Below, piece by piece: positions 29,592 to 41,276 of a stretch of DNA of 64,000 bases. Below the pieces are notes generated by a model. It was not told the origin of the DNA. It did not search any database and worked only from the letters and a program-made list of their open reading frames with translations. The DNA is from Oscillospiraceae bacterium (GTDB taxonomy: Bacteria > Bacillota > Clostridia > Oscillospirales > Ruminococcaceae), in the NCBI GenBank assembly GCA_014799395.1, contig JAAVID010000081.1, positions 1 to 64,000 on the forward strand, in the 5' to 3' direction. The translations under genes and the position numbers were made by a program. The stretch's first letter is position 1. Each line of letters starts with the position of its first letter.

Positions 29592-29765
29592 CTATTGTTT
29601 TTTGGCGAGATAATAATCGTCGTCGCGCTCGTAGTACGGGCAATCGTAGTTTGTGCCCTGCAAAAAGCGGTACATCTCGTCCTCGTCCAGATTGACGAGA
29701 CAGGTATAGTAGCCGCAGTCCTCGTCGTATACATAATTTACGCATTCATCGCAATTCGTTGTCAA
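29592..29765 (-). CDS. Small Cys-rich acidic protein (DUF6472-like)
   Basis: A 57-residue protein starting at TTG 29765 behind AAAGGAGAG. It has Cys pairs in NCDECVNYVYDEDCGYYTC and a later YDCPYYERDDDYYL, a pattern found in small clostridial proteins of the DUF6472 type. The cysteines could bind a metal. It lies 22 bases after the toroid/DUF4430 gene and may be a third gene of the cobalamin-controlled operon. Function unknown. A longer in-frame reading upstream of the TTG would overlap that gene and lacks a ribosome site. Confidence 0.65.
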   Translation of the reverse strand: MTTNCDECVNYVYDEDCGYYTCLVNLDEDEMYRFLQGTNYDCPYYERDDDYYLAKKQ

Positions 29766-29787
29766 AGTGCTCTCTCCTTTCACGCGC

Positions 29788-31395
29788 TTATTCGGCATAC
29801 CCCAATTCACAGGTGTATATGAACTCCACCAAATCGCCCTCCGACAGCTCATACGCCCCCGCGGACATCTGCGGGACCGCGCCGTTTACGCGGTAAGTCC
29901 AGCCGCTTTCACTGCCGAAGCCGAACTCGTAAACAAACCCTATCCCGCGCACATAAATGCCGTAGGACGAACCGACATAGTCCACCCGAACACGCTTTGC
30001 CCTAGCCGCCTCGATAAGCGCGTCAAACGCGGTCGCGCCCTCGCGGAGCGAAACCTCGTCAAGCGGCAGTATTATGCCGTCCTCGGGTATCACCGACAGC
30101 GGATTTACGCTCTCGTCAATGTCGCCGAGACGGTCGAGCACACCCGCGCAGTCCGCCCCGACGCGCACGGTTATCCCGTTTTCGGGAGCTTGCGCGTAAT
30201 ATTCCTCGGGCGTTCTGATGTTCAGCAGCCACACCGCTCCCGACAAAACGAGAATAATAAGCCCCGATATTGCCAAGCCCTTTCCGCGCCTAACAACAGC
30301 CGTTATCAGCGCCGCAATGCCGATAACGCCGAGCCCCGCCGAAATTATCAGCTTGATGCGAAAACCCGTTATAACGCCGGTTTCTTCCGTTTGGAAAGTG
30401 ACGGAAGAAACGGGAAAATTTTCGGAAATTTCCTCGGACGTCCCGGAAATACTTTCGTGATCTTCGTCCGTATCGGCGGCGACCTTCGGCTTGTCAAACA
30501 GCGCCTCGCCGCGCTCTTTAAGGCTCAGCGCGGTGAATGCCTGCAACGCTTGGACCGTCGCCATTTTGTTGGTTTTGCCATTGAGCTCGTGAGCGAAACC
30601 TCCGTCCTCGCGGCGAAATCGGAGCAGCGCGGAGACCGCGTTATCAAGGCGTTCGTCGTCAATACCCGCCGCCGTGAACGCCAGCACCGCCTGCGCGGTG
30701 CTCTCGCTCGTCTCGTTCCCCAACGAGAGAAATCCCCCGTTATCAAGCTGAAGCTCCGAAAGCGCGCAAACGGCTTTGTCAAGCGCATTGCGGACGTTCT
30801 CATCATCCGCAAGAGGAGCAAGCGCGGTTATCGCCGAGGCGGTAATATCAACGTCGGCGGAGCTGCCGCGAAGCGCAAATCCGCCGTCGCCGAGCTGCCG
30901 CCCGATTATCTCCTCGGCGAGCTGCAAGCGCGTATAGACCGCGCCGTTGTCGGGTTCGAGACCGCTGCAATTCGCCGCGGCGAGCGCCCATATCCACGCG
31001 TTCAGCCCCTGCCTGTCGAGGTTCGTATTGCAGTACGCCGCGGCGTTTATCAGCTCGCGCGGACACTCGCCGAACGCCGCAAGCACTATCGCCGTGCGCT
31101 GAAGCTCGGTCGGCGTTACAAAGCCGTCGGAATTTATAAGCTCCGAACGAAGCGCGTTTTCAACGAACTCCGCGGAATTTTCCGCGCCATACAGCCGAGC
31201 ACGGCAAAGCACCGTCCAGTCGGCGCTTCCGAGCTGCAAGCCGTCGTAAAAATCATTAACGCCGCGCTCGTTCATATTCAGCGCAAAAAGCTCGCGGATA
31301 ATATCGGCGTTATCCGCGGCGTGCGCCGTTATGCAGAATACGGTTTGCACCGCGATAATTACCGCAATGCAAACCGCCTTGATCATTTTCTTCAT
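29788..31395 (-). CDS. Membrane protein with alpha/alpha toroid and transcobalamin-like (DUF4430) domain
   Basis: A 535-residue surface protein. The signal peptide covers residues 1-26. Residues about 30-295 form helical repeats with QLGDGGF, QLDNGGF and RREDGGF turns at about 167, 216 and 261, typical of the prenyltransferase/terpenoid-cyclase alpha/alpha toroid. Two membrane helices (about 346-368 and 374-392) follow a Ser/Glu linker. Residues about 405-530 are a DUF4430 domain, the family of the transcobalamin C-terminal domain, with SESGWTYRVNG and YELSEGDLVEFIY. Mammalian intrinsic factor and transcobalamin combine the same two folds to clasp cobalamin. It is the second gene behind a cobalamin riboswitch, so corrinoid capture at the cell surface is a strong inference. 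Confidence 0.85.
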   Translation of the reverse strand: MKKMIKAVCIAVIIAVQTVFCITAHAADNADIIRELFALNMNERGVNDFYDGLQLGSADWTVLCRARLYGAENSAEFVENALRSELINSDGFVTPTELQRTAIVLAAFGECPRELINAAAYCNTNLDRQGLNAWIWALAAANCSGLEPDNGAVYTRLQLAEEIIGRQLGDGGFALRGSSADVDITASAITALAPLADDENVRNALDKAVCALSELQLDNGGFLSLGNETSESTAQAVLAFTAAGIDDERLDNAVSALLRFRREDGGFAHELNGKTNKMATVQALQAFTALSLKERGEALFDKPKVAADTDEDHESISGTSEEISENFPVSSVTFQTEETGVITGFRIKLIISAGLGVIGIAALITAVVRRGKGLAISGLIILVLSGAVWLLNIRTPEEYYAQAPENGITVRVGADCAGVLDRLGDIDESVNPLSVIPEDGIILPLDEVSLREGATAFDALIEAARAKRVRVDYVGSSYGIYVRGIGFVYEFGFGSESGWTYRVNGAVPQMSAGAYELSEGDLVEFIYTCELGYAE

Positions 31396-31401
31396 TTGTT
31401 A

Positions 31402-32229
31402 TTATCCGCGCTTGCGGGAAACTGCCAGCATGCCCGCCGCGATCACTGCCGCGCCGAATACCGCCGCAACGCTTTCAACGCCCGTATCAACGTTTGTCGG
31501 AGCTTCGGGGGTGTTCGCGGGTGTTTCGGTCGTCTCGGGAGCGGGCTGAGCCGCGTTTTTAAGCGCGTTTGCCGCCTCGTCAAGCTCGCTCTGAGCCGCG
31601 CCGAACTTGCCGAGCGTCTCGACCGCCGCTTTGTATTCGGGCAAGGACTTGTCCGCCAGTGCCGCGGTCTTTATCAGCTCCGCCGCGTTGACCGCGGGAA
31701 CGAGAGCCTCCGCGCCGCCCCAGCTCGAATTGTCCTGACCGAGATCCGAGCCGTATCCGTAGACCGTAAATCTGTACTCCACAACGTCGCCGTCGGCAGG
31801 CTCGTAGCTGCTTATGCCAACCTGCGCGTACTCGCCGTTAAGGAAGTAGCTCCAGCCGCTTTCGGGCGTGTAATCCAGCGCCGTAAGCTGTCCCTCGGTG
31901 CTTCTGCCCGTCATTTCGGGGCAGACCACCTTGATCTCCTCCGGCACGTCCGCGCCGTTGTCCGCGTCCTTGAACGCGGTGATGTAGTCGCCGTATTCGC
32001 TTTCCACAACCGTCACATCAGCCGCGCGCTTTACAATGTCGATACCGCTGTCGCCCTCGTAAAACGGTACGGCCACGGGCTCAACGCAAACGCCCTGCCC
32101 GATCGTCGACTTTACCGCCGCAAAGTAGACCGTTCCCTTTTCCGCAGGCTGCGCGAACACGCACAGCGAGGTCGCCGCAGCAGTCGCCGCAGCGGCGAAT
32201 ACTGCAAGAATTTTTGCCTTTTTCATCAT
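31402..32229 (-). CDS. Cell-surface DUF4430 (transcobalamin-like) protein with C-terminal anchor
   Basis: A 275-residue exported protein, first gene after the cobalamin riboswitch. It has a signal peptide (cleavage near VFAQP) and a DUF4430 domain (about 35-165) with YEGDSGIDIVKRA, ESGWSYFLNG and YEPADGDVVEYRF. A helical region and a Pro/Thr-rich stalk follow. The C-terminus has NVDTGVESV, a hydrophobic helix and SRKRG, which resembles a sortase sorting signal with a non-LPXTG motif. It probably displays the binding domain away from the membrane. It is separated from the next gene by six bases, so the two are co-expressed. GGAGGAATAATG gives the start at 32229. Confidence 0.87.
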   Translation of the reverse strand: MMKKAKILAVFAAAATAAATSLCVFAQPAEKGTVYFAAVKSTIGQGVCVEPVAVPFYEGDSGIDIVKRAADVTVVESEYGDYITAFKDADNGADVPEEIKVVCPEMTGRSTEGQLTALDYTPESGWSYFLNGEYAQVGISSYEPADGDVVEYRFTVYGYGSDLGQDNSSWGGAEALVPAVNAAELIKTAALADKSLPEYKAAVETLGKFGAAQSELDEAANALKNAAQPAPETTETPANTPEAPTNVDTGVESVAAVFGAAVIAAGMLAVSRKRG

Positions 32230-32244
32230 TATTCCTCCGATAAT

Positions 32245-32466
32245 ATTTTTTTCGGCGGTCTCGACTGACAGGTCTTCCGACTTACGGCTTATACTAAAAA
32301 GGGGTAAGTATCGCGCTTTATGCCAAGCCTTCCCACAGCTTTCGCCTCAGTGACCCGGGCTTTCGCCCTATGACATAAACGCAGCCGTTTACGGCAGCGG
32401 GGACTGTCACGGATTTTCACCGTGTTCCGTGATTTTGCATCACATTGCCGCGCCGAGTTTTCCGCC
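32245..32466 (-). promoter_or_regulatory. Cobalamin riboswitch
   Basis: Minus-strand leader of the DUF4430 operon with the parts of a B12-sensing RNA: GGTGAAAATCCGTGACAGTC followed by CCCGCTGCCG, the GGGTCACTGAGGCGAAAGC region, and the 3' B12 box AAGTCGGAAGACCTGTCA, closed by GGCGG/CCGCC base pairing (P1). The leader begins about seven bases after the promoter -10 box and ends 15 bases before the first start codon. No intrinsic terminator follows, so control is probably at translation initiation: P1 and the 3' flank lie close to the GGAGG ribosome site. Confidence 0.93.
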
Positions 32467-32473
32467 AAAATAT

Positions 32474-32502
32474 ATTATAGTATTTTTTTCCGCGATTGTC
32501 AA
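32474..32502 (-). promoter_or_regulatory. Promoter of the cobalamin-riboswitch operon
   Basis: Minus-strand TTGACA (32497-32502), 17-base spacer, TATAAT (32474-32479), directly after the end of the CDF gene. Confidence 0.85.
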
Positions 32503-41116: not shown

Positions 41117-41276
41117 AAAAAAGCCGCCCGATCTCTCGGGCGGCTTTAAGCTCGGCTGTTTGGCAGGCGTCCCATTCTCCTGCATCTCTCAAATCAACAA
41201 AGACTGCTGATTTTGTCAAGCCCTCGGCGTGTGGACGGGGACGAAATCCTCCACCTCAAACAGCCACTATTAGCCT
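41117..41276 (-). ncRNA. Stand-alone small RNA gene, possibly 6S RNA
   Basis: A minus-strand transcription unit of about 160 nt bounded by a good promoter (41283-41311) and a strong terminator (41117-41147). It has no reading frame. Near its ends GGCTGTTTG pairs with CAAACAGCC as a closing stem, and CGTCCC pairs with GGGACG further in, with unpaired stretches between and an AAATCA/TGATTT apical hairpin. Length and a closing stem, bubble and apical stem layout fit 6S RNA, which binds the vegetative RNA polymerase, but I cannot confirm the family by eye. Confidence 0.6.

Follow-up and report, generated by a model that had tools for sequence, protein, structure and literature searches.

A cobalamin-riboswitch operon in a Ruminococcaceae bacterium encodes two predicted intrinsic-factor-like surface proteins with a probable role in ECF-type B12 uptake

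Bacterial proteins in which an alpha/alpha toroid is fused to an SLBB (DUF4430-type) domain were described by Burroughs et al. in 2007, together with Gram-positive anchors, paralogous pairs in the same operon and CbiO/CbiQ neighbours, and a role in scavenging B12 or its precursors was proposed for them (PMC1796856). Among energy-coupling factor (ECF) transporters, ECF-CbrT, whose structure is Protein Data Bank (PDB) entry 6FNP, was shown to transport cobalamin and cobinamide (PMC5997447), while the btuH loci of Bacteroides carry cobamide-responsive riboswitches (PMC6977713, PMC8941943); our statements on these papers refer to the portions drawn on here. We analyzed an operon of two genes, referred to as gene A and gene B, in a 64,000-nucleotide stretch ("the window") of Oscillospiraceae bacterium assembly GCA_014799395.1 (contig JAAVID010000081.1, positions 1 to 64,000). 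With a probability of roughly three in four, the operon serves riboswitch-controlled corrinoid capture for ECF-type B12 uptake, the transporter parts being encoded elsewhere in the genome. This function is well supported by genomic context, and corrinoid binding by the two proteins is a prediction.

On the minus strand, from window position 32502 to 29788, the operon runs in the order promoter, RF00174 cobalamin riboswitch, gene A and gene B, and a DUF6472 gene comes next (Table 1). The riboswitch, already called in the preliminary description of this DNA, stands directly ahead of the gene pair and is the sole match to RF00174, the class searched throughout the genome (2.76 Mb in 112 contigs, given as 97.75% complete). 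Sixteen bases separate the aptamer from gene A, and six separate gene A from gene B. The promoter call is a consensus match only, with 4 such sites found compared to a mean of 1.7 in shuffled sequences. Since no U-tract terminator is reported between the aptamer and gene A, translational control is likelier than transcriptional control. A candidate expression platform is a possible hairpin that holds the ribosome-binding site (RBS) in its loop. By eye, an A/T-rich stem around CGGAGGA can form in 8 of the 11 riboswitch tails examined, and the stem sequences that close this loop differ (ATTAT/ATAAT, TTTTGT/ACAAAA and TTTAC/GTAAA); the remaining three are G003 and G022, which have no hairpin in the stretch examined, and a second match in G027, which meets the contig end. 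It should be noted that minimum-energy folds speak against the hairpin: in the operon's own 100-base tail the RBS pairs with the 3' half of the stem that closes the aptamer, and in the 280-base leader it is left unpaired. Ligand-OFF switching is usual for riboswitches of the RF00174 class, and because the folds do not choose the hairpin, the direction of the switch stays a supposition here. An open reading frame of 833 codons runs antisense to genes A and B, and no support was found for its being a gene.

Both controlled genes carry a DUF4430 domain (PF14478, cut-off 23.8 bits), as had been described, and they are the only two matches in the genome. Gene B scores 48.5 bits and gene A 34.6, the latter over a partial match to profile positions 35-70 of 72; the gene A domain also aligns with a profile of gene B-type DUF4430 domains at an hhalign probability of 97.5. 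The toroid of gene B is recognized mainly through its family. As a single sequence it reaches 24.6 bits for Prenyltrans in Pfam, under the 26.5 cut-off, whereas a profile of 17 aligned proteins finds squalene-hopene-cyclase-type chains in the PDB with a best E-value of 1.8e-18. Two hydrophobic helices lie between the toroid and DUF4430 in all 17 of these proteins, the one from the window included, and the loop between the helices has three or four basic residues and zero acidic ones in every case; two of the 17 show an extra weak hydrophobic peak within the toroid. By the positive-inside rule, the basic loop would be cytoplasmic, and therefore both domains of gene B are predicted to be extracellular. 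The preliminary description had pictured a single protein with both folds and two membrane helices between them, and this stands. The predicted topology leaves the toroid and DUF4430 able to face each other, and their closure on one another stays a proposal.

Gene A encodes a smaller, secreted DUF4430 protein with a linker and a C-terminal tail for which a sortase-like anchor had been suggested. The tail (NVDTG, a helix and RKRG) is unmatched by PF00746 in Pfam and its motif lacks the proline, while 10 of the remaining 13 sequences in the gene A alignment have SPxTG. There are four sortase matches in the genome, all on one contig, and one of them passes the cut-off only with its neighbours in the frame. 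A wall anchor at the C-terminus of gene A is thus plausible.

In order to find the transporter that these proteins may serve, we examined relatives of the toroid protein in a collection scan, in which the best 80 of 520 matches were kept. Among these, loci L094-L105 were set aside as genus-type on the basis of similarity and operon layout rather than a taxonomy lookup, and the 68 others (L106-L173), taken to lie outside the genus, were analyzed. In 64 of the 68, EcfT, a dual ATPase and one family of S-component are encoded on the toroid gene's strand, anywhere in the stretch fetched. The commonest order is toroid-EcfT-ATPase-S, and 7 of the 64 have the ECF genes ahead of the toroid gene. Among the four exceptions, L139 has EcfT and the ATPase and then meets its contig end, and L141 and L155 have just 331 and 692 bases downstream, respectively. 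The S-component scanned from these loci matches PF07155 and PF12822, and a profile of five such proteins has 6fnp_A as its best PDB match (E 3.6e-20), compared to 5.4e-5 for the riboflavin uptake protein 3p5n. We take the 182-residue chain A of 6FNP to be CbrT itself.

The same association is seen on two lactobacillus plasmids, where EcfT, an ATPase, an S-component, a toroid-like secreted protein and a membrane-anchored DUF4430 protein are encoded by separate neighbouring genes, so this type of transporter can have the toroid and DUF4430 beside it either as one protein or as two. The toroid-like status of both plasmid proteins was read by eye from their repeats, as Pfam named no toroid, and one of the two carries a true LPXTG anchor (PF00746). 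A compact relative was seen in seven further loci, where a riboswitch is followed by a membrane-anchored DUF4430 protein of about 150 residues and then a CbrT-like S-component. The best PDB match of a profile for this last S-component is again 6FNP (E 5.9e-24), and the single member scanned (from L052) has no Pfam match at E 0.1 and no NCBIfam match at E 0.01. The window's genome (G000) has no match to this profile, and the small-DUF4430 type of S-component was rejected as its transporter.

The window's genome does contain one solitary member of the S-component family found beside the toroid genes, on contig C79 (E 7.6e-74). Taken alone, this protein matches 6fnp_A at E 1.4e-9, scores 49.1 bits for PF07155 (cut-off 26.7) and 21.8 for PF12822 (under the cut-off of 30.7), and shares 30% identity with a lactobacillus plasmid homologue across 192 aligned positions. 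Neither EcfT nor an ECF ATPase lies beside it. The only EcfT match in the genome is on contig C50, after a fused dual ATPase and before a gene that by eye is TruA-like; dual ATPase-EcfT-TruA is the layout of the housekeeping ECF module. The FecCD permease family (PF01032) has 0 matches in this genome, in a search that was positive in 13 of 14 controls, and BtuFCD was rejected as the partner on this ground. BtuF/BtuC/BtuD-type clusters, assigned by clustering, do lie behind the same riboswitch class in ten relatives' loci, and Pfam named one BtuF-type and one BtuC-type protein, both from a single locus (L056). The likely transporter is therefore a CbrT-like ECF S-component and not BtuFCD. In addition, contig C102 encodes a 795-residue protein that has a B12-binding domain and, by eye, homocysteine- and pterin-type regions, and so looks like MetH.

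To follow the S-component independently of gene neighbourhood, we used 61 genomes. The window's own genome and others of its genus make up 37 of these, which are not independent of one another, and the other 24 were taken at the order level, one per family. The cut-offs, which were picked after viewing the lists, are E < 1e-20 for a toroid carrier and E < 1e-40 for the S-component. The S-component is present in 23 of the 25 toroid carriers and in 2 of the 36 other genomes (Fisher p 2e-12). With one genome per family, the counts are 5/5 and 1/19 (p 1.4e-4), and at the default E <= 0.001 they are 26/28 and 6/33 (p 2.6e-9). The gene A-gene B layout itself occurs in 15 genomes, 13 of which have the S-component; in 11 of these 13 it lies away from EcfT and the dual ATPase in the stretch fetched, with several contigs being short. 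In G012, an ordinary ABC ATPase match (63 bits) lies near the S-component; in G021 the S-component is fused to an ATPase beside EcfT, and in G029 it is tail to tail with EcfT and the ATPase. The preliminary description had placed the transporter elsewhere in the genome, which is borne out by contigs C79 and C50, and it had left the choice between btuFCD and ECF partners to a co-occurrence search; toroid genes track the ECF S-component.

The riboswitch is likewise tied to DUF4430 across genomes. Of the 46 RF00174 matches in the 61 genomes, 27 are followed within 9 kb by a DUF4430 gene of the same orientation, compared to 2 that are preceded by one and 0 with one in the opposite orientation; the expectation for random, independent placement is 0.11 of 46. 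An nhmmer model was built from these 46 matches, and hence recovers 46/46 by construction; on reversed sequence it gives one match (E 0.13). Among the 68 loci, 51 have at least 4 kb upstream, and 31 of these have an upstream match to the model. One locus (L110) lies on the same contig as genome G057 and is therefore also counted among the 61 genomes. Covariance models, run on 17 of the 68 loci, confirmed all nine that have an nhmmer match (7 as RF00174 and 2 as RF01689) and found RF01689 in one of the eight without; another of these eight, L116, reaches 34.1 for RF01689 in a relaxed search, below the threshold of 36.5. Three toroid-ECF operons of Ruminococcus (L125, L126 and L129, with L116 as the sub-threshold case) have this adenosylcobalamin-II-type riboswitch, RF01689, and no RF00174 is reported there.

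Taken together, these results suggest how the operon may work. When corrinoid is scarce, the cell would present gene A at its wall and gene B at its membrane, and when corrinoid is plentiful the operon would be off, as supposed from the usual behaviour of this riboswitch class. The toroid and DUF4430 domains of gene B, linked via the two-helix hairpin, would close on the corrinoid in a manner much like that of the transcobalamin domain pair, and gene B would then hand it to the solitary S-component encoded on C79. We infer that this S-component works with the EcfAA'-EcfT module encoded on C50, and the MetH-like enzyme is a likely consumer. Such a capture relay was part of the preliminary description. 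Its riboswitch, intrinsic-factor-like domain pair, outside topology, probably anchored paralogous partner and transporter located elsewhere are all retained, and its Cys-rich third gene is not.

Several observations weigh against this explanation. G020 and G027 have the window's layout without a strong S-component match. No more than 16 of the 25 toroid carriers show an upstream RF00174 match within the contig: a contig break accounts for 2 of the others (G029 and G035), and in 7 no RF00174 was found at the operon with stricter filters, one contig (G002) ending early. No riboswitch was found in the stretch around the S-component on C79, nor at gathering score in the two lactobacillus plasmid loci. 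L136 may be a true exception to the toroid-ECF linkage, having no ECF gene in 8000 bases upstream and 2491 downstream. Gene A has no toroid, and its anchor is without the usual proline. Furthermore, the profile of gene B-type DUF4430 domains retrieves no PDB chain of transcobalamin or intrinsic factor to E 10, and neither do the toroid and gene A profiles to E 1, and thus the link to the animal proteins rests on family naming and literature. PF01122, which we take to be the eukaryotic cobalamin-binding protein family, does not appear among the Pfam matches of either protein to E 1.

The riboswitch does not specify the cargo, and the preferred ligand of the surface proteins could be something other than cobalamin itself: a B12 precursor or another corrinoid, such as cobinamide or a cobamide with a different lower ligand. 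This possibility overlaps with corrinoid capture as proposed above and is in keeping with the carriage of both cobalamin and cobinamide by ECF-CbrT (PMC5997447) and with the wording "B12 or its precursors" in Burroughs et al. (PMC1796856). The genome's own MetH-like protein argues against precursors, and we consider this version unlikely, if the strongest of the rivals. MetH requires a complete cobamide. Less likely again is that the toroid-DUF4430 protein is a structural partner of the ECF complex, which holds the S-component or the wall binder while the S-component alone binds. The PDB matches of the toroid are cyclase and prenyltransferase folds and not B12 binders, the lactobacillus plasmids encode the toroid-like and DUF4430 proteins separately, and for the CbrT of L. 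delbrueckii, a protein that binds and transports B12, the portions of the paper drawn on mention no toroid or DUF4430 partner (PMC5997447). What favours a binding role for gene B is that the toroid and DUF4430-type domains are the pair that sandwiches B12 in transcobalamin (PMC1796856) and that they are found together in both fused and split form.

It is improbable that the proteins are adhesins or wall proteins with a surface polymer or some other metabolite as ligand, B12 acting solely as a regulator. One large toroid relative does carry Glug and Big_3 domains, and a lactobacillus one carries MucBP, all of which are kinds of domains found in surface adhesion proteins. What speaks against an adhesin is that 64 of the 68 loci link the toroid gene to EcfT, the ATPase and a CbrT-like S-component. 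Corrinoid capture for ECF-type uptake is retained as the best explanation.

The small Cys-rich protein downstream, which had been put forward as a possible third gene, is real (DUF6472), and it was rejected as the operon's third component. Exactly one copy is present in 36 of the 37 genus genomes, with or without the toroid operon and usually away from it, and it adjoins the operon in 6 of those 36. It is a lineage gene that happens to sit downstream, not a specific part of the operon. In eight relatives, a polytopic membrane protein of about 519 residues takes the place of DUF6472 after gene A-gene B; the one member scanned has no Pfam match and no family was found for it, and it could be an unrecognised partner. 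Elsewhere in the window, a 675-residue protein with a TIR_2 domain has weak PADLOC matches only (best 20.4 bits) and is possibly a defence or signalling protein, and an Rfam "skipping-rope" small RNA is also present.

Table 1. Features of the operon and other features of the window, with positions counted from the first base of the 64,000-nucleotide stretch.
Feature	Positions	Strand	Basis or details
Sigma-70-like promoter, TTGACA-N17-TATAAT	32474..32502	-	12/12 consensus positions; stops just 5' of riboswitch
Cobalamin riboswitch aptamer, RF00174	32246..32472	-	58.2 bits (gathering 31.5); model positions 1-189 of 189
Possible hairpin ATTAT-CGGAGGA-ATAAT, RBS in loop; candidate expression platform	32228..32244	-	By eye
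Gene A, 275 residues: signal peptide, DUF4430, linker, NVDTG-helix-RKRG C-terminus	31402..32229	-	Pfam, hhalign, family alignment
Gene B, 535 residues: signal peptide, alpha/alpha toroid ~125-290, helices 350-368 and 373-391, DUF4430 453-528	29788..31395	-	
DUF6472 small Cys-rich protein, TTG start behind AAGGAGAG (start by eye)	29592..29765	-	PF20076, 78.8 bits
TIR_2 protein, 675 residues	44942-46969	-	PF13676, 43.8 bits
"Skipping-rope" small RNA	41155-41264	-	44.4 bits (threshold 36.7)

Burroughs et al. predicted the core idea, of which the detached two-binder layout represents one variant, so the novelty is below what the preliminary description implied. To this, the present analysis adds the connection to a riboswitch, a name for the S-component family and its unlinked co-occurrence, a predicted topology for the fused protein and the detached arrangement of two binders in this genus. 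No experimental study of a bacterial toroid-DUF4430 protein was found in literature searches covering titles and the openings of abstracts. In ECF importers the membrane S-component itself binds the substrate, so a dedicated extracellular clasp, if true, would introduce a new step into ECF import and provide a bacterial counterpart of the animal B12-absorption proteins with defined genes. The toroid-DUF4430 protein and S-component family may serve as a marker when B12 uptake is annotated in Clostridia of the rumen and gut. More tentatively, and with the odds somewhat against us, we suggest that an intrinsic-factor-like receptor is standard in the ECF B12 importer of many Clostridia, as a membrane-anchored clasp that shuts on the corrinoid outside the cell and opens on docking to the S-component. 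The window's genus would then have made of it a detached two-binder relay with its own riboswitch, serving a lone S-component that borrows the housekeeping ECF motor, with animal intrinsic factor as a soluble descendant or cousin of the receptor.

Compared to known systems, the operon is closest to the SLBB/DUF4430 proteins of Burroughs et al., with which it shares the toroid fusion, signal peptides, wall anchors, operon paralogues, CbiO/CbiQ neighbours and proposed scavenging; it differs in standing apart from the transporter genes, in having a two-helix hairpin between the toroid and DUF4430, and in its association with a riboswitch and a named S-component family, riboswitches being absent from the portions of that paper drawn on. 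ECF-CbrT (Santos et al. 2018, PMC5997447) provides the closest solved S-component by profile and the precedent of several S-components per ECF module, but the portions of that paper drawn on name no toroid or DUF4430 receptor for it; a gene called cbrS lies beside cbrT. BtuG and BtuH of Bacteroides likewise capture B12 at the surface ahead of a transporter (PMC6977713, PMC8941943), but they have different folds (BtuG is a beta-propeller), act at the outer membrane and depend on BtuB; the likeness is by analogy only. Finally, animal intrinsic factor and transcobalamin also combine an N-terminal toroid and a C-terminal beta-grasp (DUF4430-type) domain in one extracellular protein, whereas the bacterial protein is membrane-anchored between the two domains and has no sequence match to them in the PDB.

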